IMG/VR virus record: IMGVR_UViG_3300006754_000011
Coordinates: 1 to 64,000 of that record
Source of the DNA: a virus
DNA: 64,000 nucleotides
Reading direction: 5' to 3' (one strand)
A model generated the notes under the pieces. The model saw only the letters and a program-made list of their open reading frames with translations. It made no database searches and had not been told where the DNA came from. The first letter of the stretch is position 1; each line of letters begins with the position of its first letter. Positions 25,917 to 48,281 of this stretch are shown here, piece by piece. Both the position numbers and the translations under genes were made by a program.

Positions 25917-26426
25917 CTAATCCACAGTTAGTTCACTTACAAATTGTCCAGTTGCAGTCGTACCAGCACCTCCAGCGGTAATTGTCATTACTCCTGAACT
26001 TAAAATTGTTCCTGCAAGAGTACCTGCTACGCCACCAGATTGTGTTGTTGTTGCTCCAAATGCTGGCATATCTGCAACAACTCCAGATGTAACATCAACA
26101 CCAGCTCCTATTGCTGGGACAGCATCTCCTTGAGTAAATCCTTCCGAGAATGAAAATGCAGATCCTACAGTATTTACATCATAAGTACCTGCTTTCATAG
26201 TTGCTGCTGTTGTTGCACTACCAGCTGTTAAGCCTCCAAATACATCACTATTTCCTGTTCCAACTTTTATATTTGAACCTGAAACTGTATAGGTACTTCC
26301 TATTCTTTCTGCAGCTGTTGCTGCACCGTTAACGGTTAATTGAGTGCTTGTTGATAAACGATGTACTAAATCTGCGCGAGCACTAGGCGCAACAAATAAT
26401 ATTAACAGTGGTAAAAGTTTCCACAT
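25917..26426 (-). CDS. Exported protein with signal peptide, first gene of triplet
   Basis: A 169-residue protein starting with a signal (WKLLPLLILFVAPSARA) and a mature Gly/Thr/Ala-rich beta part. It includes the motif YTVSGSNIKVG, echoing YTVTGTNIKHS in the next gene, so the two are distant paralogues. It leads the operon from the divergent region at 26427-26497. It ends 2 nt before the next start. Confidence 0.8.
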   Translation of the reverse strand: MWKLLPLLILFVAPSARADLVHRLSTSTQLTVNGAATAAERIGSTYTVSGSNIKVGTGNSDVFGGLTAGSATTAATMKAGTYDVNTVGSAFSFSEGFTQGDAVPAIGAGVDVTSGVVADMPAFGATTTQSGGVAGTLAGTILSSGVMTITAGGAGTTATGQFVSELTVD

Positions 26427-26436
26427 ACTAAAAATT

Positions 26437-26486
26437 AATACTTACCTTTATTATAAGTTTATATGATTGTAAACTTAGAAAGTATT
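26437..26486. promoter_or_regulatory. Nested dyads in divergent intergenic region
   Basis: Two nested perfect inverted repeats lie between divergent genes at 26426 (-) and 26498 (+). The outer is AATACTT (26437-26443) with AAGTATT (26480-26486). The inner is AAGTTTA (26455-26461) with TAAACTT (26470-26476). This could be an operator or overlapping divergent promoters. Confidence 0.45.
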
Positions 26487-26497
26487 GCCACTATACG

Positions 26498-26959
26498 ATG
26501 GATGAAAATGTAAAAGAGACTGTAAAAGAGTCTACAAAACAATCTGAAAAGAAGAAAAGTCTTTTTGGAAAAGTAAAATCAGCACTCCTACCTGATCAAG
26601 AAGAACAGGCTGCAATTGTCTCTACCATGGTGAGAATTGGAGTACTTGTTTGGAGTGGTGGAATTCTTACATTAAACTATGTAACGATACCTGGACTCGT
26701 ACAGCAAAAAATAGATCCAACTTTCATCGCGTCGGTCTTCACTGGAGTTTTAGCCAGTTTTGGAATTCAGACAGCAAGTAAAAAAGGTGATGGAACTATG
26801 AAAATGAATGGTGAAAGTGGACAAGTAAGTAAGAAAGATATGGAACAAATGATTGAAAAAGCTGCAGCTAATTCTTCTGTACAAACTATTAGAATTGAGC
26901 AAGCTCCTTTAGTTATTAAAGCTGAAAATCCTCAAGAGAAAGATAAATATCAAATGTAA
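26498..26959 (+). CDS. Holin-like two-span membrane protein
   Basis: A 153-residue protein. The N-terminal ~35 residues are highly charged. Two hydrophobic spans follow: ~47-67 (VRIGVLVWSGGILTLNYVTI) and ~75-97 (DPTFIASVFTGVLASFGIQT). A charged C-terminal tail follows. This layout fits small holins and similar membrane proteins reported from cyanophages. The function as a holin is inference. The gene is transcribed divergently from the exported-protein triplet. Confidence 0.6.
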   Translation: MDENVKETVKESTKQSEKKKSLFGKVKSALLPDQEEQAAIVSTMVRIGVLVWSGGILTLNYVTIPGLVQQKIDPTFIASVFTGVLASFGIQTASKKGDGTMKMNGESGQVSKKDMEQMIEKAAANSSVQTIRIEQAPLVIKAENPQEKDKYQM

Positions 26960-26979
26960 AGCAGATCAAAGCCTAGTTT

Positions 26980-27022
26980 GAAGAGGATAACTGATGTAAG
27001 ATTCTCATAGTTTGTCCTCTTC
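26980..27022 (+). promoter_or_regulatory. Hairpin upstream of small gene
   Basis: GAAGAGGA (26980-26987) pairs perfectly with TCCTCTTC (27015-27022). AACT (26989-26992) with AGTT (27009-27012) can extend the helix. No T run follows, so it is not a clear terminator. It ends 4 nt before the ATG at 27027 and could control its translation. Confidence 0.5.
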
Positions 27023-27026
27023 TTTC

Positions 27027-27266
27027 ATGGGTCTTGATCTAGCTAATATCGGTTCTCAAGTTGATACTCAGTTATCTGATTTAACTCAGCAGATTAGAAC
27101 TGCTGAAGATAGTTTAATGCGTTTAAAAGAGACTTATTTAAAAGTACAAGGAGCTAAAGAGATGCTTACTATCATTAGAGAAGAAGATAAACCAGCTGTA
27201 ACCACTCCTGAACACAGCATGGTAACTGATACAGCAGAATACATTCCAGATGGCACGGCAGACTGA
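27027..27266 (+). CDS. Small helical protein, coiled coil
   Basis: A 79-residue protein beginning MGLDLANIGSQVDTQLSD. Residues ~10-50 are a coiled coil; the C-terminus is Thr/Pro-rich. The ATG at 27027 is chosen; a TTG at 27012 would lie in the preceding hairpin. Its last base is shared with the next start (TGATG). No family recognised. Confidence 0.65.
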   Translation: MGLDLANIGSQVDTQLSDLTQQIRTAEDSLMRLKETYLKVQGAKEMLTIIREEDKPAVTTPEHSMVTDTAEYIPDGTAD

Positions 27267-27478
27267 TGTTAACTGAATTCACTAAAGGACGTTACAAAGC
27301 TCTAGAATTACTTTCAGAGTATTTAAAAACTCCTCCACGTGAATTAAGACTCGACGCAATTTTTAGAAATATACCAGAAGAAGATCTTCGCTGGGTAACT
27401 GAACGTTTTCATTACTACGTTCTAAAATTGCTTGAAGAAGCAGAAGATAAAGTACAAAGAGAAGACTATATAAAATAG
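27266..27478 (+). CDS. Small hypothetical protein
   Basis: A 70-residue charged helical protein, translationally coupled to the previous gene through TGATG. It contains LELLSEYLKTPPRELRL and aromatic RFHYYVLKLLEE segments. No family recognised. Confidence 0.65.
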   Translation: MLTEFTKGRYKALELLSEYLKTPPRELRLDAIFRNIPEEDLRWVTERFHYYVLKLLEEAEDKVQREDYIK

Positions 27479-27517
27479 AATGATAACTTAGAGCATTCAC
27501 AAAAAAAGCATTTCATC

Positions 27518-27757
27518 ATGGCAATAGATAAAAGGATTCAGTATAGAGATGTTGTAGAAGGCTCTCCACAAGAGCGACAACTTGCTAGTGATAATTATGA
27601 TGCAGGTAAAGCAAAAGAAGCAAAGACTTTTTTAGGTAATAAAGCAGAAGATATTATTCAACAGTTAAGAGACGGGCGTTTAAAAACTAATGATGCTTTT
27701 TCTGATCGACCTAGTATGGAATTAGCTTCTAATGAAAGAAATGATAATTATCTCTAA
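27518..27757 (+). CDS. Small hypothetical polar protein
   Basis: A 79-residue charged protein. Its opening (QERQLASDNYDAGKAKEAKT) and general shape resemble the gene at 30594 (VNTEQASDNESGKKFLAQ), so the two may be distant relatives. It precedes a convergent oxygenase gene. No function recognised. Confidence 0.6.
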   Translation: MAIDKRIQYRDVVEGSPQERQLASDNYDAGKAKEAKTFLGNKAEDIIQQLRDGRLKTNDAFSDRPSMELASNERNDNYL

Positions 27758-27787
27758 TGAATAAAGAAGAAAAATGGTTATTAAAAT

Positions 27788-28594
27788 CTAATCTGTCATC
27801 TTAAGTAAAGGCCACGATCTAAACCATTTAGTAATTATATATTTATTCCCACTGATTGGAGGTAAAGCTTCATGCAAGGTTTTATAATTTGGCCAACCAT
27901 TTTTATAAAGATTATTCCAAAAGACTGCTGTACCCTTTTTAGGTTTAATTTTTAAATTTAAATGTTTAAAATAAGTTTCTCCTCCTTCTTCAACATCATT
28001 TAAATAAACCGTGAATGTCCATGTACGTTGACCCATCCATTCTGTATATGTTTTATATTCAGTTGTAAAGCGAGGAAAATAATCATGATGAGCTTTATAA
28101 AATTCTCCTGGTAAGTAGCGTTGAGCTTGTACCCATTCTGCGAGAAGACAGTCCAATCCCATGTAATTTGCGATTACTTCATTTAAATCTGTACCTACAT
28201 CACTTAATCTGTAATCAAAACCAGATGTACTTGATGTTCTATAGTCGCTATGTACAATGTTATCGTCTTCATTTGCAACAGTAGAAGGAACTAATTCTTC
28301 ACACATTTGTTTGATTGCTATCTCACAATTTTCTTCACTAAGAAAATTATCTTGAATATAAATTTGAGTAAAAGGAAATTTAATTCTTTTTGCAGTAGAT
28401 GGAATAGCTAAATTATAAAATTTTTCATAATTAATAAATAAAGGTTTCAGATTCAAGCCTGGATCAGAAATTAATTTATTTATTTCCTTATCAGTAAGCT
28501 TATAAGCTTCTTTATATTCACGTATCAAATAAGTTTTAGTTGCTCCTGATATAGCAGCAATTAAGAAATCTTGCTTAATTGGTTCATCTATCAT
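27788..28594 (-). CDS. Prolyl 4-hydroxylase-like 2OG-Fe(II) oxygenase
   Basis: A 268-residue 2-oxoglutarate-dependent dioxygenase. The iron site is visible as AHHDYFPRF (HxD), then GGETYFKHLNLKIKPKKGTA, and TLHEALPPISGNKYIITKWF with the distal His and the basic 2OG-binding residue. This order matches prolyl 4-hydroxylases. Phages of cyanobacteria often carry such enzymes, whose substrates are mostly unknown. The N-terminal ~85 residues are specific to this protein. It is convergent with the gene at 27518. Confidence 0.85.
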   Translation of the reverse strand: MIDEPIKQDFLIAAISGATKTYLIREYKEAYKLTDKEINKLISDPGLNLKPLFINYEKFYNLAIPSTAKRIKFPFTQIYIQDNFLSEENCEIAIKQMCEELVPSTVANEDDNIVHSDYRTSSTSGFDYRLSDVGTDLNEVIANYMGLDCLLAEWVQAQRYLPGEFYKAHHDYFPRFTTEYKTYTEWMGQRTWTFTVYLNDVEEGGETYFKHLNLKIKPKKGTAVFWNNLYKNGWPNYKTLHEALPPISGNKYIITKWFRSWPLLKMTD

Positions 28595-28646
28595 TTTTTT
28601 CTGTATCTTACTCTTAAACTATAGGAAGTAAAGAGGCAATGCAAGA

Positions 28647-28796
28647 ATGAGCGCAGTTATCCTTACTTCTTTTATGATTTTTTATGCCATGTATCTTAGT
28701 AGCTCTTATCTATTAACACATGACTATGAAAGAGAAGAGAAGGATTTTCATTTACAAGCTTTAAAGAGGTATAAAAAAATACGAAATCAAACCTAG
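28647..28796 (+). CDS. Small membrane protein
   Basis: A 49-residue frame with an N-terminal membrane span (AVILTSFMIFYAMYLSSSYL) and a charged cytoplasmic-type tail (HDYEREEKDFHLQALKRYKK). AGAGG lies upstream of its ATG. It sits between the oxygenase and nblA. The hydrophobic-then-charged layout looks real, but it is short. Confidence 0.5.
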   Translation: MSAVILTSFMIFYAMYLSSSYLLTHDYEREEKDFHLQALKRYKKIRNQT

Positions 28797-28822
28797 TGTC
28801 CACATTGGCAGTTTTTTTATCC

Positions 28823-28851
28823 TTGACTTGAAATATCCTTATGGTTATTAC
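28823..28851 (+). promoter_or_regulatory. Sigma70-like promoter for nblA
   Basis: TTGACT (28823-28828, 5 of 6 to the -35 consensus), a 17-nt spacer and TATTAC (28846-28851, 4 of 6 to the -10). It would start transcription near 28858, giving a short leader before the nblA start. Host RNA polymerase should be able to use it. Confidence 0.6.
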
Positions 28852-28884
28852 TGTTAGGATGAGTAAATAACGACGGAAACTCAC

Positions 28885-29103
28885 TTGGCTTCCATGCTAG
28901 ATCTGCCCGTTGATCAGCAATTTGCTATTCATGCAGCGGCAGTCGCAATCAAAGAACTTGATCGAGAAGAGCTAGAAGAAGCTTTTGTTGACATGCTTCA
29001 CCAAAAAGCTACTGAACGTCAGATCTTTTTGAACATTTTAAAAGAACATGGTATCGATGCCGATATCAGTTTTAAATTTTTAAAAGCAAACCAGAACTCT
29101 TAA
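28885..29103 (+). CDS. nblA: NblA-like phycobilisome degradation adaptor
   Basis: A 72-residue protein matching NblA in length and pattern. After a short lead comes LPVDQQFAIHAAAVAIKELD, aligned with the 'L.leQQF.i' start of NblA. The helical part ends in RQIFLNILKEHG, matching the C-terminal 'y..LLk' element that contacts phycobiliproteins. NblA tethers phycobilisomes to the ClpC protease. In infection this should strip antennae and release amino acids. Freshwater cyanophages and an uncultured marine lineage carry nblA. The start is TTG 28885 (GGA at fair spacing) or ATG 28894. It has its own promoter. Confidence 0.85.
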   Translation: MASMLDLPVDQQFAIHAAAVAIKELDREELEEAFVDMLHQKATERQIFLNILKEHGIDADISFKFLKANQNS

Positions 29104-29107
29104 TCCA

Positions 29108-29482
29108 ATGGCAACTAGAACTATTAAAGGAACCCTAGACACTCTACAAGTGAATACTGGAAGTGAAATAACCTATAAAGGGCAGTCTTTAACAGGTAAA
29201 GGAAAACGTGCTTTCCAAGTAAATCCAGGTGGAACAGGTAGTTTAATTGTTGATATTGATCAAAGTTCGGGTGTGTCCGAACTAGAAATTTTCCAAGAAG
29301 ATGCTTATACAGGATCTGCTCGTGCTACAGGTTATCAAACCATTGCAAATATTGGAAAAGCTGGAAAAGGTAAAGGAGCTGTTGCTGTTACAGTAAGTGA
29401 TGCAGCAAAGAATTATATTGTTATGCTTACTCTAAGCGGTTATTCAGAAGTTGCCTACAGCGGATCTGTCACCATCCCGTAA
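29108..29482 (+). CDS. Beta-rich protein of unknown function
   Basis: A 124-residue protein with strand patterns (RTIKGTLDTLQVNTGSEITY, KGAVAVTVSDAAKNYIVMLT), Gly-rich linkers and no signal peptide. It starts 4 nt after nblA stops, so they could be co-transcribed. It overlaps the next gene if that begins at the TTG. No family recognised. Confidence 0.65.
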   Translation: MATRTIKGTLDTLQVNTGSEITYKGQSLTGKGKRAFQVNPGGTGSLIVDIDQSSGVSELEIFQEDAYTGSARATGYQTIANIGKAGKGKGAVAVTVSDAAKNYIVMLTLSGYSEVAYSGSVTIP

Positions 29483-30179
29483 GCTCGATATTTCATATGC
29501 AAATGATTATGCATATGATTTAATTAAATATTATGCAGTAGCCAGGACTCTTATGGGTTCTGGCCTTTATGCTTCTTATAAAGCGCATGGAGAATCTATT
29601 TGGAAGATTGGTTTTGATAGTACTGAAATAAGAAGTAAAGTAATTTCAGCACGAACTAAAGCTACTTATGAAGAAGTTGATGAACAATTAAAATTAGATC
29701 TAAAGAAATTATCATATAAAATTGCAAATTTAATTTTTTGGCCTTTGAATGCAAAAAAGAAAGCTGCAGTTTTAAGTTATGCTTTTAGTATTGGATTTCC
29801 AAAATTTAAGAATTCTGATTTACTTGAAGTAATCAATAGAGGAGCTAAAAGAAAAGAAATTATTAAGATTTGGTCACCTTATATTAATAAAAATTGGAGA
29901 CATTTAGGAGAGAATTTTTTTGATAAACGTAGATCAGAACTGAATTTATTCCTTGCTCCTGATAAAGATATTCCTACATTAGTTCCACATAAATGTAAAC
30001 TTAATCGTTGCCTCCTAAATATAGGTGATACATATAATGGCAATATAAACCAAATTAAGGCAATTAATTACTTAGAGAAAAAGCTTCTTGAATTAGATCC
30101 GTCTGGTGAGGTTCTTCGTAGGTTTTTTCGATACTGGGATCAAGTACCTGGAGGTCTGGGATCTCCACGATGTCTCTAG
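29451..30179 (+). CDS. Lysozyme-fold (GH24-like) endolysin, divergent
   Basis: A 242-residue protein. The pattern AVLSYAFSIGFPKFKNSDLL and 'EVINRGAKRKEIIKIW' plus HLGENFFDKRRSELNLFL matches the second half of phage lysozymes, which have 'lvSFaFNvG...f..StLL...N.G'. The first half has GESIWKIGFDST like 'g..TIGyG'. The catalytic Glu expected upstream is not obvious, since that place reads MGSGLYASYKA. It may be a non-catalytic or shifted-site muralytic protein. The start is TTG 29451, overlapping the previous gene; the first in-frame ATG is ~100 nt later. Confidence 0.55.
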   Translation: MPTADLSPSRKLDISYANDYAYDLIKYYAVARTLMGSGLYASYKAHGESIWKIGFDSTEIRSKVISARTKATYEEVDEQLKLDLKKLSYKIANLIFWPLNAKKKAAVLSYAFSIGFPKFKNSDLLEVINRGAKRKEIIKIWSPYINKNWRHLGENFFDKRRSELNLFLAPDKDIPTLVPHKCKLNRCLLNIGDTYNGNINQIKAINYLEKKLLELDPSGEVLRRFFRYWDQVPGGLGSPRCL

Positions 30180-30249
30180 TATCCTGAAGCCAATCCAGAC
30201 AATTAATAATTTTCCATTCTTCGCTATCTAGAATTTTATCTGCGTTCAT
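30064..30249 (-). CDS. Small acidic hypothetical protein
   Basis: A 61-residue protein on the - strand that starts inside the end of the next upstream gene (14-nt overlap) and runs 116 nt antisense into the lysozyme-like gene. It has helical SEEWKIINCLDWLQDTRDIV and an acidic tail. Coupling to the DUF1599 gene supports it; the antisense overlap is a caution. Confidence 0.5.
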   Translation of the reverse strand: MNADKILDSEEWKIINCLDWLQDTRDIVEIPDLQVLDPSIEKTYEEPHQTDLIQEAFSLSN

Positions 30250-30565
30250 TAAGCTCTTTCCAAATTTTTAAAAGGATTAAATAACCAATTAGATCTTGAA
30301 TTACATCCTCATCTGTTTCTAGGATATCACTTCCTTGTTTGATTCGATTTAATTTATCATCGATACGAACTAAGATCTGTTCATTGGTAGGTGCCTTACT
30401 AAATACTCGAAGAGGTTCCAATGCAGAATTCCCGTAAGAGAGATTCTTTTCTAATAGAAGATCTCGAATATCATCACAAATCTTGGCAATTAAAAGTGCC
30501 GTCTCATTCTTCTCATGGTTTTTCAGCACGACAAGTGAGGTGGAAGGAGCTGTTTTCTTTACCAT
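30236..30565 (-). CDS. DUF1599 / nucleotide-modification-associated protein
   Basis: A 109-residue protein. LLEKNLSYGNSALEPLRVF, then ILVRIDDKLNRIKQG, then DEDVIQDLIGYLILLKIW match the DUF1599 pattern ('YGnsa..p...fs', 'RiDDKl.Ri', 'eD...DliGYliLlki'). The family has been linked to nucleotide or base modification in phages, and its fold resembles MazG-like all-alpha NTP hydrolases. It lies near an adenine methyltransferase-like gene. Its exact reaction is unknown. Confidence 0.75.
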   Translation of the reverse strand: MVKKTAPSTSLVVLKNHEKNETALLIAKICDDIRDLLLEKNLSYGNSALEPLRVFSKAPTNEQILVRIDDKLNRIKQGSDILETDEDVIQDLIGYLILLKIWKELNERR

Positions 30566-30593
30566 TACCGATTAGTATCGGTAGAATATTATC

Positions 30594-30833
30594 ATGGCTA
30601 AAAATAGATCACAAGACTACGACGTAGACCATCGTCGTGTAAATACAGAACAAGCTAGTGATAATGAATCAGGTAAAAAATTTTTAGCACAATATTTAGA
30701 ATCAAAGCGAAGAAAAGATGCTTATCCAATTGGTAATGAACGAGAAAGAGATGATCGCTTTATTGTTCCAGCATTAAATCAAACAGATGGAGAAATCACT
30801 TTTAAGAATTTATTCAGAGCTACTCAAACTTAA
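30594..30833 (+). CDS. Small hypothetical polar protein
   Basis: A 79-residue charged protein beginning MAKNRSQDYDVDHRRVNT. It contains KRRKDAYPIGNERERDDRF and a C-terminal FKNLFRATQT. It lies divergent from the DUF1599 gene and convergent with the methyltransferase by a 4-nt overlap. It shares weak similarity with the gene at 27518. Confidence 0.6.
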   Translation: MAKNRSQDYDVDHRRVNTEQASDNESGKKFLAQYLESKRRKDAYPIGNERERDDRFIVPALNQTDGEITFKNLFRATQT

Positions 30834-31459
30834 TTAATTATTTTTCCAATATTAGAAAAGATCTCTCTAAATCTTTCTCCTGATTGAAAGTCTGTACGAG
30901 GTGGGGGTAAGTAAATAAAAAATCCCCATGTAAAGGGAGTTTTAAAACGATAATATTTTTTCCCTTGGATTAAATTAGCTCGTTTAGTAGGAATACATAT
31001 AGGATAATCCCACATATTTGGGCATGCTCGCATCATTTCATGGTTACAGGAAAATAATAAAGCTTCATAAACATTGCGTAGTTTCCATTCACGTTCTAAA
31101 CGTTTAAACCATGCAATAGAAGGACTCATTGATCCTGTTCCACCGTGTAATCCCCAGCGCCATGTTCCTCTTTGTTTACTAAAAGAACAACGTCCGTAAG
31201 TAGGAGGGAAACAATATACTTTTCCTGTCCATGCAATATCTATATTTAAACCATCATCTTCTTTTGTATAGAAATTTTTAGCATGAATAAAATCTTTATT
31301 AGCATGTTCAGTACTACAAGGATCTAAATCAATATGATATTCAAATAGAGCTGCTATATAAGGTAAATATTCAGCAGGTGTAATCCAATCTTCTTCTAAT
31401 CTCCAAATTCTTTTTGCATTTTCAAATTTTCTACGCGATTCAGCATAGCTCTTTTTCAT
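30830..31459 (-). CDS. Dam-family (phage N6-adenine) methyltransferase, altered motif
   Basis: A 209-residue protein. DWITPAEYLPYIAALFEYHI, then DLDPCSTEHANKDFIHAKNF and YTKEDDGL, match the phage DNA N-6-adenine-methyltransferase family. The catalytic motif, normally NPPY, reads CFPPTYGRC here, so the first residue is Phe and Thr is inserted. The remaining C-terminal core (VYEALLFSCNHEMMRA, FTWGFFIYLPPP) is typical. It may be inactive, or bind DNA without transferring methyl. It couples by ATGA to the next upstream gene. Confidence 0.75.
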   Translation of the reverse strand: MKKSYAESRRKFENAKRIWRLEEDWITPAEYLPYIAALFEYHIDLDPCSTEHANKDFIHAKNFYTKEDDGLNIDIAWTGKVYCFPPTYGRCSFSKQRGTWRWGLHGGTGSMSPSIAWFKRLEREWKLRNVYEALLFSCNHEMMRACPNMWDYPICIPTKRANLIQGKKYYRFKTPFTWGFFIYLPPPRTDFQSGERFREIFSNIGKIIN

Positions 31460-31854
31460 ATAGCACGAACTGAAACTTTCTCATCTTTGTCATAGTGGAT
31501 TAAAGATACATACTTAGGATCCTGAAGAATGAATAAAGCTTCTTTTTTAGGATCAATCGATTCAGCTTTTACAATTGCTCTACGCATTACATCAGCAAGT
31601 TCTTCCATATCTCTACTTACCATGTCACTTACAGCATTCATTAAATGGTCAACAGTTAAATAGAACATTGTATTATCTTCAGATTTAGGCGCATAGACCA
31701 TTGCCCCAGGTCCTTCTGCTTTGAAAAATTTTTCATAAAATTCTGCCATATCTATTGTTACACGTTCAATAACAATATCAAGCATCTTCTGTTCTGCTTC
31801 AGAAGGATTAGCTTTTAACAGGTTGTTTAGAATCTTTTTCCTTCGGTCGCTCAT
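31456..31854 (-). CDS. Hypothetical helical protein
   Basis: A 132-residue protein, mostly helical and acidic, with DMAEFYEKFFKAEGPGAMVY and 'DMVSRDMEELADVMRRAI'. It overlaps the start of the methyltransferase by 4 nt and the upstream gene by 47 nt. It may be a partner of the methyltransferase. No family recognised. Confidence 0.6.
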   Translation of the reverse strand: MSDRRKKILNNLLKANPSEAEQKMLDIVIERVTIDMAEFYEKFFKAEGPGAMVYAPKSEDNTMFYLTVDHLMNAVSDMVSRDMEELADVMRRAIVKAESIDPKKEALFILQDPKYVSLIHYDKDEKVSVRAI

Positions 31855-32395
31855 GTCGAATAAAACGAGACAGATCAGAGTTTTTTAAAGTCTCATGTAG
31901 CTTAGGAAGCCCACGATATAAAACAACTGGTTTCCCAGCATTACCAATCTTTTTAACTAACTTACCATCCTGATCCCTGACTTTTATTAATTCTTCTTGT
32001 CTTAATAAGTACTCCGCCACACAGCGATAACGCCGTTTTGAATTTAAATCGATGTCAGGAAAACGATCACAAATTGTAGCTGCTTTCATATCACTAAAAG
32101 CAATTCTGATTTGATCTGCTAGTGATAGACCTAAAACCATATCATTAGTAGATGTTTCATAAGTCTGAATTAATTCAAGATATCGTCTTAGATCAACAGT
32201 TTCAAAACTTCCTGAAGGTGGAATAAACATTTCTACTTGAATGATCAGAGAAGAAACTAGTTTTTTTCTATAATTTTTAATAGTTACACTATTGATATCA
32301 AGTTCTTTAAAACGATAACTTTTATATTTAGCTATGGGTTCTAGTTGTATATTCGTATCTTTACCCTCTGTCAACAACCAATCCACAAGTTTCAT
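31808..32395 (-). CDS. Hypothetical protein
   Basis: A 195-residue protein beginning MKLVDWLLTEGKDTNI. The middle has hydrophobic helices (TNDMVLGLSLADQIRIAF) and a basic, likely winged-helix-like segment (CVAEYLLRQEELIKVRDQDG). It ends 47 nt inside the next gene, the longest tandem overlap in this operon. No family recognised. Confidence 0.6.
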   Translation of the reverse strand: MKLVDWLLTEGKDTNIQLEPIAKYKSYRFKELDINSVTIKNYRKKLVSSLIIQVEMFIPPSGSFETVDLRRYLELIQTYETSTNDMVLGLSLADQIRIAFSDMKAATICDRFPDIDLNSKRRYRCVAEYLLRQEELIKVRDQDGKLVKKIGNAGKPVVLYRGLPKLHETLKNSDLSRFIRHERPKEKDSKQPVKS

Positions 32396-41876: not shown

Positions 41877-42965
41877 TTACCCAATAGCAGGTGCTAATAG
41901 AGCAATAGGGGTAGATTCAGTGCTTGCTAAATCAAGAGGGAAATTATGAGCATTACGCTCATGCATTACCTCCATTCCTAAGTTCGCTCTATTGAGGACA
42001 TCAGCCCAAGTAGGAACTACTTTTCCATCAGCAGAAAGAATTGATTGATTAAAATTAAAACCATTCAAGTTAAAAGCCATTGTGCATACCCCCATTGAGG
42101 TAAACCAAATAGCTACTACAGGAAAGACAGCAAGAAAGAAATGAAGTGAACGGCTATTATTGAACGAAGCATATTGGAAGATCAAACGACCGAAGTAGCC
42201 ATGAGCTGCGACGATATTGTAAGTTTCTTCCTCTTGTCCAAATTTATATCCGTAGTTCTGAGATTCAGTTTCAGTTGTTTCTCTAATGAGTGATGATGTA
42301 ACCAAGGAACCGTGCATAGCAGAGAACAAAGAACCTCCAAACATTCCCGCAACTCCCAACATATGGAAAGGATGCATAAGGATATTATGTTCCGCCTGAA
42401 AGACAAACATAAAGTTGAACGTTCCCGATATCCCCAATGGCATACCGTCAGACAAACTTCCTTGTCCGAACGGATAAATGAGGAAGACCGCAAAGGCCGC
42501 TGATACTGGTGCAGAATAAGCAACACAAATCCAGGGACGCATCCCTAGTCGATAGCTAAGTTCCCATTGTCGTCCCATGTAAGCAGAGATACCAATGAGG
42601 AAGTGGAAGATGATAAGTTGATACGGTCCACCGTTGTAGAGCCATTCATCAATTGTCGCAGCTTCCCATATTGGGTAAAAATGCATTCCGATTGCGTTTG
42701 AGCTAGGGACGATTGCTCCTGAGATGATGTTGTTTCCATAGAGAAGGGATCCAGCAATAGGCTCACGAATCCCATCAATATCGACGGGTGGAGCAGCTAT
42801 AAACGCAATTATGAAACAGGTGGCAGCAGTTAAGAGACAAGGAATCATTAATACACCAAACCAGCCTACATAGAGGCGGTTATTTGTTGATGTAGTCCAG
42901 TCACAAAACTCTGTCCACCCATTTAACATAGCGCCAGAATTACGCTGAGTAAGAGTGGAAGCCAT
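41877..42965 (-). CDS. psbA: Photosystem II reaction-centre D1 protein
   Basis: A 362-residue D1 protein that replaces damaged host D1 in the thylakoid PSII core during infection. All landmarks are present: five-span pattern, [14 protein letters not shown], and the manganese ligands in [16 protein letters not shown]. The C-terminal extension after Ala is 15 residues, removed by the host CtpA protease. The residue in [13 protein letters not shown] is Gln, the low-light (D1:1) type. Its codon use and base composition look cyanobacterial. It is flanked by terminators and has a hairpin in its leader. Confidence 0.99.
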
Positions 42966-43069: not shown

Positions 43070-45688
43070 CTATTCTGACTCTTTTCCCTCAGGCAAAATC
43101 GTTGCAAACTCTTTATATTTAATATCAGATTTACGTATTGCCAAACCTTTAAATAGTGGCATTCCTTTACGAGTAAAAGTAAATATATCTGTAAGAGCAA
43201 GTTGACTCTTACAACAATCCATTAATAAAGCAATGAATCTTTTTTGACCAACAGCTTTAGATCCAGTTGCTTCACAATGCTCACAATAGCTGGGATAAAG
43301 ATGAAAACTGCTATTGAAATATCTTTCAGACATTTCTTTATTTGTATTAGGAATTTTCTTTCCTACAGCAACGACATTATCTTTATCGAGAACAATTTCT
43401 GATTGGAGCCATTCAATTAAATTGTTACTTGTAACCATAATATTATTACGTACTTTCTTTAAAGAAGGAGCTGCTTCATAAGTATCTAAAAGATAATAAC
43501 GCATTTCTTTTTCATCTATTTGTAAAATCCAGTTCACTAATCCAGGTAAATAATCCTTCCATAAGCCTGCTACACGACCTTTACTAATTTTTATCATGTC
43601 TTTTGCTTCAGAATTTTTCTTATATAATTTACGATTGAATTCAATTGTTAAACGTCTACGAATCAAACCACTGGTGTTATCTGTTGTTTGTATAGGCTCA
43701 TTAGCTGCAACCATAACCATGCCTGTATAAACAAAAGGTTCACCTATGTTTTTCATCTTTTCTTCATATCGAAGATTATCTCCTCCTGTTAAAGCTTTAA
43801 AGACTTGAGCAGAACCTCCATAGCGTTCTGAATCATTAATTAAAGTCATTCTTTTACCTTTAATTGAAGCTAATTCAAAACGAGATTGTTCAAGTTGATT
43901 GAGTGTAGTACTGGCATAATTGCCTGCTCCAACTAAAGCACAACAGAGATTTGCAAAGGTAGATTTACCTCGTCCACCTGGGCCTACAATTTCTAAAAAT
44001 CTTTGTAATTCATGCCCATGTCCTACAAGACAAGCTCTTAACCAAGCTCTAAGAACTTGTACTCTAGATTCATCTCCGTATTGAGTACGTTGAATCCATT
44101 CAGTAATAGGACCAGGATTAATTTCTGGATTGTATTTGAAATCTAATCCCCAAGTAATATAATCTTCTTTATTATGTTCAGAGAAATCACCTGTAGCAAC
44201 TTCTAGTACTCCATTAAGAAATACAATTTTATCTGTACCATCATTCCAATAGACTCTAGATATCTTTTGTTTTAAAAGTTCTACTACATCAGAAACTAAA
44301 TTTGCACTAAATCCTGCAGGAGTATAAGAACGATTCGTAGTTAATTCATCTTGAATAATATGATGAAATTCTTTTCTATAGTCCTCTCTACGCCAGAAAC
44401 CACGATTAGGCATGTAATACATAAAAGTATCAAAGCGTGGATCAAAACACCAACCGATACTCAAAGCCCATTCTTGAAGATATTCTGCAATAGTAGAAGA
44501 AGGAGGATTCCTTACTTTGTTATCACCACTTTTTGTACCACGCTTGCTTACTTTTCTGGTTGTAAAAGGAATATTAATATCATCATTTAAAAGCGCTTCA
44601 ACACCACCTTCACTTTGAACAGTTGAAAGTAAATGATCTAATAATTCAGGTTCAACTTCTTGTTGACGTTCTTCTACTTTTTTACTGAGTTCTTCAAAAG
44701 ACATGGCTGTATAGCCTCCCATATCCACCCAACCATCTTCTTTTGCCATTGCTTTTAATGTATGTAAGCCTCTCCCATCTACTGGTGTAGGCCCTCCTGG
44801 AAGGCGTTCAAAACTTTCCCATTTCTCTTGACAAACACCTGATTCAAATGATTTAGATTTGGTAGACCATTCAAGCCAGGCGCCTAATAATTTTTCATTT
44901 GTTTGGTGTAAAGCCATTCCAACAGCTAACCATTCTTCATAATCATTACAACGTTCTAGACTTAAATGTTCTAAATATTCACAAGCTTCTTCAATAATTG
45001 CTTCTTCTTTATATGAGCTATCTTGATCATAAGAAAGATGAATATTTTGAGAGATAAATGGTGAAGGTTTACTTGTTACTCGGCGATATTTTGAAGAGGG
45101 ATAAGCATTAGAGATAGCTGTATATAACCACTCTGGCATATCAGGTAAGCTATCAATATATTCAAAACCACCATGAGAAGTTGTTTTATATCCTTCTGTA
45201 TCAGGATGTGCACCCATGAGTGCACCTTGACGTGAACGCCAAAGAATTTCCCAAGGTGCTTTATCTACTTTAATTGTTGCTCTATCAGGTAATTGTTGAA
45301 TTCTTTTATTTGGAATACGAAAAAGTAATCTAAATTTTCCTTTCTTTCCACTTGTAATAGTTAGAGTAGATGGAAAAATAGAATGAATAGGACCTCCACC
45401 TAGCTTTTCAATTTCAGGTATAGCTTCTTCTCCATCAATATCAACAAAAATCAAACCATATGTATTACAAAATTGACCACATAATAGACCAACACCAGTT
45501 GCTCTTCCTTCTTCTAATTCCCTTTCAATTTGTGAAACAGTAAAAGGATTCTTAGTCCAACCAGGAATATAAGCTTTTTTACCTTGTAAGGGAGTTAGGG
45601 GCCAGTCAGTAGAGACTAAAGACAGGTTTATCTCACCTGAACTAAGAGGTTTTTGAGAGGGTGGTTGATCAGGAAACGTAGTGCTCAT
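43070..45688 (-). CDS. Primase-polymerase / SF3 helicase (bifunctional)
   Basis: An 872-residue replication protein with three regions. The N-terminal prim-pol has FVDIDGEEAI with the DxD near 83-85 and TITSGKKGKFRLLFRI near 110-124. A PriCT-2-like linker at ~235-320 (EYLEHLSLERCNDYEEWLAV) follows. The SF3/D5-type helicase has Walker A GPGGRGKST near 569-577, then KRMTLINDSERYGG and VMVAANEPIQTTDNTSGLIR. It would prime and unwind phage DNA. This differs from the T7-type gp4, which has a TOPRIM primase and RecA-like helicase. Confidence 0.9.
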   Translation of the reverse strand: MSTTFPDQPPSQKPLSSGEINLSLVSTDWPLTPLQGKKAYIPGWTKNPFTVSQIERELEEGRATGVGLLCGQFCNTYGLIFVDIDGEEAIPEIEKLGGGPIHSIFPSTLTITSGKKGKFRLLFRIPNKRIQQLPDRATIKVDKAPWEILWRSRQGALMGAHPDTEGYKTTSHGGFEYIDSLPDMPEWLYTAISNAYPSSKYRRVTSKPSPFISQNIHLSYDQDSSYKEEAIIEEACEYLEHLSLERCNDYEEWLAVGMALHQTNEKLLGAWLEWSTKSKSFESGVCQEKWESFERLPGGPTPVDGRGLHTLKAMAKEDGWVDMGGYTAMSFEELSKKVEERQQEVEPELLDHLLSTVQSEGGVEALLNDDINIPFTTRKVSKRGTKSGDNKVRNPPSSTIAEYLQEWALSIGWCFDPRFDTFMYYMPNRGFWRREDYRKEFHHIIQDELTTNRSYTPAGFSANLVSDVVELLKQKISRVYWNDGTDKIVFLNGVLEVATGDFSEHNKEDYITWGLDFKYNPEINPGPITEWIQRTQYGDESRVQVLRAWLRACLVGHGHELQRFLEIVGPGGRGKSTFANLCCALVGAGNYASTTLNQLEQSRFELASIKGKRMTLINDSERYGGSAQVFKALTGGDNLRYEEKMKNIGEPFVYTGMVMVAANEPIQTTDNTSGLIRRRLTIEFNRKLYKKNSEAKDMIKISKGRVAGLWKDYLPGLVNWILQIDEKEMRYYLLDTYEAAPSLKKVRNNIMVTSNNLIEWLQSEIVLDKDNVVAVGKKIPNTNKEMSERYFNSSFHLYPSYCEHCEATGSKAVGQKRFIALLMDCCKSQLALTDIFTFTRKGMPLFKGLAIRKSDIKYKEFATILPEGKESE

Positions 45689-47306: not shown

Positions 47307-47498
47307 TTACAGGATTCCTGGAATCAATTGTCCAGTTGTTACATAAGCTCCTAATGCTGCAACAAAACCAATCATGGCCCAACGACCATTAGCTTTTTCA
47401 GCAGCTTCTACATAGGAAATTTCTCCTTTCATTACAGCAATCTGTGGTTCTTTTGCGTATATGTTTTGATGGCCACCAGATTCATTAGTAATAGTCAT
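47307..47498 (-). CDS. hli: High-light-inducible protein
   Basis: A 63-residue single-helix chlorophyll-binding protein. EKANGRWAMIGFVAALGAY matches the Hlip core ExxNGRxAMxGF exactly. Phage Hlips are thought to protect photosystems or stabilise PSII during infection. The N-terminal half has VMKGEISYVEAAEKAN. The gene is a single transcription unit with its own terminator. Confidence 0.96.
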   Translation of the reverse strand: MTITNESGGHQNIYAKEPQIAVMKGEISYVEAAEKANGRWAMIGFVAALGAYVTTGQLIPGIL

Positions 47499-47561: not shown

Positions 47562-47852
47562 CTATTTGGAGATCTTATAGAATGTATATTTCAAAAATAA
47601 TTCTTCTTCTGCTTTTATAGTTTGGATAGTTCTTATAAAATAATAGCCATCCTCATAATATTTAATGCAGTTAGGCTTTTCAGAATGGTTGATAAATCCT
47701 CCTAAAGGAGAACGATAGATAATGTCATCTATTACTAAATGAGACATGCCTAAATCAGTACCGATAGGGATCTCTGTCTTAGCAAAAACGCCTTGACCTG
47801 CTATTGGACTGTCTTTAATGTGAAGACTTTTAGGTAGTGCTTGGTAAGTCAT
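47562..47852 (-). CDS. SET-domain protein
   Basis: A 96-residue protein. IAGQGVFAKTEIPIGTDLG, then GGFINHSEKPNCIKYYEDG and a final KAEEELFLKYTF, match the SET core ('G.Gvfa...i..G', 'NHS..PNC', 'I..geEl...Y'). SET proteins transfer methyl groups to lysine. This copy is a minimal domain without pre- or post-SET extensions. A virion or host target is unknown. Similar short SET genes are known in phages and bacteria. Confidence 0.8.
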   Translation of the reverse strand: MTYQALPKSLHIKDSPIAGQGVFAKTEIPIGTDLGMSHLVIDDIIYRSPLGGFINHSEKPNCIKYYEDGYYFIRTIQTIKAEEELFLKYTFYKISK

Positions 47853-47912: not shown

Positions 47913-48281
47913 TTAGAAAGAATACTTTGCTCCAAGTTTTGTGGACCAATCTTTGTCATCATCTGAATCTTCAGGAGTAACAACAGCTACTTCACCATAG
48001 ATTCCGAGTCTTTCTGTAGCAGCGATGTTAGCACCTACTTTACCAGATAACCTGGTATCAGAGTCTTCACCATCTTCAGCTACAACAGCTGGACCGCCTT
48101 GAGCATACCAATCAACACTACCAACTTTATCTTCATATCCTAGATGAAAATCGGTTGTACGATTCTCATACTGATCGCCAGTGTAAGAAGCATTGGATTC
48201 AATGTTGGCATAAAAGCCACCAGCAAAAGCAGCAGGAGCGGCGAAAGCAGCTGCAGTTGCTAAAAGAATAGGTTTAATCAT
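47913..48281 (-). CDS. Small outer-membrane-like beta-barrel protein
   Basis: A 122-residue protein with a clear signal peptide (KPILLATAAAFAAPAAFA) and a mature part of alternating strands (GGFYANIESNASYTGDQYEN, STKLGAKYSF) ending in Phe, the outer-membrane insertion signature. It would be a very small beta barrel or a barrel-like decoy. A role in blocking superinfection or altering the envelope is inference. Related phage proteins are recalled from cyanomyoviruses. Confidence 0.75.
   Translation of the reverse strand: MIKPILLATAAAFAAPAAFAGGFYANIESNASYTGDQYENRTTDFHLGYEDKVGSVDWYAQGGPAVVAEDGEDSDTRLSGKVGANIAATERLGIYGEVAVVTPEDSDDDKDWSTKLGAKYSF

Follow-up and report, generated by a model that had tools for sequence, protein, structure and literature searches.

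This locus raises the question of whether a short open reading frame beside the structural and lysis genes of a phage encodes NblA, and whether the phage could use it to turn the host protease against the light-harvesting antenna. In the window (the whole stretch of 64,000 nucleotides analysed, part of a record of 74,205 bp), a first-pass annotation had read this frame as an NblA gene with a dedicated promoter in a phage of phycobilisome-bearing hosts. That interpretation as a whole is partly supported. We consider it probable that the product is a phage NblA serving as a ClpC adaptor for antenna breakdown, that it is expressed from its own promoter, and that it belongs to the fixed gene set of the Synechococcus phage S-EIV1 lineage.

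The open reading frame and its homology to NblA

28894-29103, plus strand: nblA-like coding sequence, 69 amino acids from ATG, matched by NF045916, PF04485, PDB entry 3cs5 and hhalign
28885-28893, plus strand: candidate N-terminal extension M-A-S from an in-frame TTG start, giving 72 amino acids, from the upstream alignment

The reported open reading frame at 28885-29103 was confirmed, and both starts are possible as judged from the alignment of upstream regions. There, the TTG at 28885 is kept as TTG or GTG in close relatives and lines up with the ATG start in relatives whose product begins MDANAL, and a second group of relatives starts at the ML of the ATG at 28894. From the latter, the product begins (M)LDLPVDQQFAIH. 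The placement of the frame thus stands, but FLNILKEHG, which had been given as the end of the protein, occupies residues 45-53 of 69 and is followed by 16 more residues, IDADISFKFLKANQNS.

Among curated families, the best match was the NCBIfam equivalog model NF045916 (E=6e-7, 29.6 bits), and the top Pfam match was PF04485 (E=0.0042, 17.9 bits), so that the NblA profile match on which the earlier reading leaned was obtained. Both scores lie under the curated cut-offs (100 bits for NF045916, 25 bits for PF04485), and because all direct family scores do so, we assign the product to a divergent clade. These cut-offs are naming thresholds, not biological features, and a blunt test for phage NblA: the NblA of Planktothrix phage PaV-LD reaches 21.5 of the 100 bits on NF045916, lower than our product, and 46.8 bits on PF04485, which passes the cut-off and is well above our product. 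The published NblA of S-SCSM1 has no PF04485 match.

When all six frames of the record were searched with PF04485 at E<=1, this frame was the sole match, and the same place alone matched NF045916 (E=9.6e-8). A phmmer search of the PDB ranked the NblA structures 3cs5 (8.8e-5) and 1ojh (0.1) first and second, with 3cs5 recovered at 5.9e-6 by a profile of the clade; profile-profile alignment (hhalign) against eight reference NblAs gave 92% and E=5.7e-7 over 57 columns. With a profile built from 12 canonical NblAs only, the product scored 27.1 bits, compared with a maximum of 8.0 for 1000 shuffles of it and 5.4 for the next open reading frame of the genome. The gene is under purifying selection, with dN/dS of 0.03-0.06 against the closest relatives. 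Searching PHROGs with the product returned no NblA-type match, tblastn with reference NblAs into phage records gave nothing useful, and megablast with 10 kb of the record found no phage relative. In a weakly resolved NblA tree, which contains no picocyanobacterial host NblA, the clade sits on a long branch (0.78).

Residues and fold

The product resembles cyanobacterial NblA (3cs5, 1ojh, PF04485, NF045916) in length, in its predicted helix-loop-helix, in the LxxEQQF and (L/I)LK motifs and in a core of 50 residues that aligns without gaps; identity is about 25-30%, below the curated cut-offs, and this phage adds a tail, HGIDADISFKFLKANQNS. For NblA, published work links ClpC binding to a motif close to the N terminus, and phycobiliproteins to another close to the C terminus (PMC4103541). 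Here, the N-terminal one (LxxEQ[EQ]F) is kept as LPVDQQF with the E to D exchange as its sole change, and F10 is invariant within the clade. Toward the C terminus, the phycobiliprotein-binding positions are conservative (I48) or invariant among 21 relatives (K50). We take these two to be the equivalents of L51 and K53 of Anabaena. The loss of contact residues, to which the first-pass reading would have been sensitive, is thus not seen in the alignment, where the N-terminal motif is retained, as is I-L-K toward the C terminus. The clade also has features of its own, namely a C-terminal tail of the form HGIDADI..F...NQ and further invariant residues in the alignment of relatives.

AlphaFold2 predicted a helix-loop-helix for the 69-residue product (helices 6-21 and 24-51, pLDDT 81), as it did for a canonical viral NblA used as control (helices 9-23 and 27-55). 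Foldseek searches of the PDB and BFVD with the model found no NblA or other meaningful match; the canonical control model likewise failed.

By analogy, the nblA product would be a two-helix proteolysis adaptor. The L-x-x-D/E-Q-Q/E-F motif of its N-terminal helix would be the docking site for the ClpC chaperone of the host, the end of the second helix (I48-L49-K50) would bind phycobiliproteins, and the host antenna would be handed to the ClpC-ClpP protease. Breakdown of the antenna during infection might free amino acids and lower light capture.

Conservation in the S-EIV1 lineage

As judged from shared genes and their order, the phage is a member of the lineage of Synechococcus phage S-EIV1 (KJ410740). 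Common to both are terminase (60-64% identity), a portal-like protein (51%), capsid (69-72%), DNA polymerase (43%) and primase (35%), in colinear order. S-EIV1 has a colinear NblA-like gene beside its lysozyme, AHV82245.1 (73902-74222), annotated as 'hypothetical protein', whose product is 28% identical to ours in the NblA-like core and matches PF04485 at E=0.014. A -10-like TAGAAT lies upstream of it, as a -10 element does here. The S-EIV1 protein differs in its length of 106 amino acids, its acidic C-terminal tail and the absence of a lysine equivalent to K50, and the S-EIV1 genome, unlike this one, has no psbA.

The surroundings of nblA in this phage are as follows:

27788-28594, minus strand: 2OG-Fe(II) oxygenase (PF13640, 1.1e-16), beside nblA in many but not all relatives
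28647-28796, plus strand: 49-residue frame shortly before nblA, its N-terminal helix hydrophobic, found in a few relatives (37-44% identity)
29108-29482, plus strand: conserved 124-residue frame right after nblA, with a weak match to phrog_4588, a virion structural family (E=0.033)
29451-30179, plus strand: lysozyme/endolysin (PF00959, 9.7e-11), adjoining nblA in S-EIV1 too

The order of nblA, the 124-residue frame and lysozyme is conserved in relatives, and the 124-residue frame is syntenic in every scanned locus reaching that far. The 49-residue frame may encode a small membrane protein that belongs to the lysis module. Within its own neighbourhood, nblA is usually among the best conserved genes.

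IMG/VR holds 331 nblA candidates of the type found in this phage and 103 of the S-EIV1 type. Prevalence was assessed in 13 contigs picked by their capsid gene, which avoided selection by nblA itself. Nine of them carry nblA; in those for which the distance was calculated, it lies some 18-21 kb downstream from the capsid gene. The other four end about 19 kb or less past the capsid gene, before or roughly where nblA would be expected; among contigs long enough to reach that place, the gene is therefore present in 9/9. By comparison, psbA occurs in 3/13 capsid-selected contigs and in 2/27 records selected by nblA. Because of this difference (9/9 versus 3/13), nblA looks like a core gene in the S-EIV1 lineage, psbA like an accessory one; judging from these contigs, nblA would be fixed in the lineage and not carried sporadically. 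Its place among the conserved genes of this lineage is new so far as the literature examined shows, and we do not claim priority.

In a scan of genome contigs, the sole find was QQUU01000116.1, a phage-like contig in a metagenome-assembled genome titled Bacteroidetes, which carries the same NblA gene and probably comes from a cyanophage through a binning error.

Photosynthesis genes and the host

The first-pass annotation placed the nblA homologue in a cyanophage that also carries psbA and hli, and all three genes were found:

41877-42965, minus strand: psbA (D1), PF00124, 1.6e-87
47307-47498, minus strand: hli (high-light-inducible protein), PF00504, 1.8e-5 at 47331-47423

Near hli, a 96-residue frame at 47562-47852 on the minus strand matches a SET domain (PF00856, E=1.8e-10) and adjoins a gene for a cyanophage outer-membrane-like beta barrel at 47913-48281 (PF24653, E=7e-44).

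A host with phycobilisomes had been taken as implied by nblA; for this phage such a host is unproven, as is a marine origin. In a tree with 14 phage PsbAs, its PsbA is placed on the side of the Prochlorococcus phages (support 98/94), and because it is of this type, the host may lack phycobilisomes: Prochlorococcus has neither phycobilisomes nor nblA (PMC7439483). One could thus suppose that the protein is an NblA derivative put to another use in a Prochlorococcus host, still docking on ClpC but handing over different proteins of the host or the phage, or nothing more than free phycoerythrin subunits. Consistent with such a change of role are the genome GC of 36%, below that of most relatives, and the clade's own tail and invariant residues. 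However, the PsbA of the Synechococcus phage S-SSM7 lies on the same side of the tree, phages exchange PsbA among themselves, I48 and K50, the positions tied to phycobiliprotein binding, are retained, and the sole cultured relative, S-EIV1, infects Synechococcus. We therefore regard a repurposed adaptor as unlikely. A broader version of the idea, in which NblA is an obligate core protein of the S-EIV1 lineage, some members (this phage included) live on Prochlorococcus-like hosts without phycobilisomes, and the divergent NblA acts there as an adaptor that brings other proteins of the host to ClpC, is speculative and seems improbable to us.

The nblA promoter

We return to the preferred reading, a phage NblA with a promoter of its own, for which the following elements come into question:

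28852-28860, plus strand: conserved extended -10 element TGTTAGGAT (TG-n-TAGGAT); including the C before it, CTGTTAGGAT from 28851
28823-28828, plus strand: TTGACT, the -35 element of the first-pass annotation, 26 nt from TAGGAT, with TTGACA or CTGACA in some relatives only
28846-28851, plus strand: TATTAC, the -10 element of the first-pass annotation, at a spacer of 17 from TTGACT, not conserved in relatives

A dedicated extended -10 promoter for nblA is well supported by comparison of upstream regions, because the TGnTAnnnT pattern is invariant amid otherwise divergent DNA: in CTGnTAnnnT, the C, T, G, T, A and T are the same in 47/47 non-redundant upstream regions, which elsewhere have a median ungapped identity of about 31%. 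The element lies 24 nt before the TTG or 33 nt before the ATG start codon, and TARAAT stands at the corresponding position in 18/18 relatives of the S-EIV1 type. No -35 element was found at 16-18 nt from TAGGAT. The exact string CTGTTAGGAT was also considered as a phage-wide promoter and rejected in this form, since it has a single copy in the genome.

The claim of a dedicated promoter therefore holds, and its position has to be moved: the conserved element overlaps the last base of TATTAC and extends downstream of it. TTGACT is a 5/6 match with a 17-nt spacer, and some relatives also show TTGAC-like bases, but the 74-kb genome has 188 sites as good as TTGACT-17-TATTAC, and relatives have TTCTGC, TGCAGA and others in place of TATTAC while TGnTAnnnT immediately downstream is invariant; that transcription starts from the TTGACT-TATTAC pair instead is very doubtful. 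A regional promoter scan gave 19 sites against 24 expected from shuffles.

Having its own promoter despite its place beside structural and lysis genes, nblA could be transcribed independently of these neighbours. With its host-type extended -10 element TGTTAGGAT, it would be read by the host RNA polymerase, probably early. Such early use would parallel the early expression of nblA in the freshwater phage Ma-LMM01 (PMC4103541).

Terminator-like hairpins are more numerous in 26000-32000 than expected from shuffles (9 versus 2.9), and include a minus-strand hairpin across the nblA start (28873-28895).

That the product is instead a small helical protein of the phage whose function has nothing to do with NblA, such as a structural or lysis accessory, and that the likeness comes from short amphipathic helices, is hardly credible: relatives flank the gene with the 2OG oxygenase or small membrane-protein gene and with a putative virion protein and lysozyme, single-model scores are weak and two-helix proteins easily give false matches, but several independent methods rank NblA first, shuffles stay at 8 bits, LxxDQQF and the C-terminal ILK align gapless across 50 residues, 13/14 tested S-EIV1-type homologues match PF04485 (best 8.2e-6), and the gene has its own promoter element.

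Relation to known phage NblA proteins

Phage nblA had been described in the first-pass annotation as limited to freshwater cyanophages and one uncultured marine lineage, with this gene as a potential second marine case. This is contradicted by the many marine phage genes already published, and nblA is on record in freshwater phages, 14 cyanopodoviruses, S-TIM5, S-SCSM1 and others (PMC9602691). Viral nblA as such, marine included, is established, and this gene is a well-supported further, divergent example. The PaV-LD protein (ORF022L), reported to be active, is likewise phage-borne and matches the same models, but it belongs to another phage group, has 54 amino acids, is of the canonical type and has R at the K53 position. 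In S-SCSM1, S-TIM5 and the cyanopodoviruses, NblA is also an auxiliary gene of picocyanobacterial phages, of different phage families (PMC9602691). The S-SCSM1 protein has by far the longest branch in our NblA tree; the assignment of this frame (ORF237, 43952-44116 of the locus used) is based on HHpred only. Canonical-type NblA was also seen on seven IMG/VR contigs (26-119 kb), where its length is mostly 54-80 amino acids; in two of them the predicted product is about 100 amino acids long with an extended N terminus.

Functional work on marine-phage NblA exists, and viral NblA is thought to lower the light harvesting of oceanic picocyanobacteria measurably (both Nadel 2025, as cited in PMC12892361). 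G238, of the S-EIV1 lineage, made up about 3% of the cyanophage signal in one marine survey, where only hli and ptoX are listed as photosynthesis genes of this lineage (PMC5332604). If the whole S-EIV1 lineage indeed has nblA as a core gene, such estimates of light harvesting may miss its contribution, because the divergent sequences fall under the family cut-offs. Cultured S-EIV1 and its Synechococcus host make the function of this NblA directly testable, and the conserved promoter offers an anchor for the timing of its expression.
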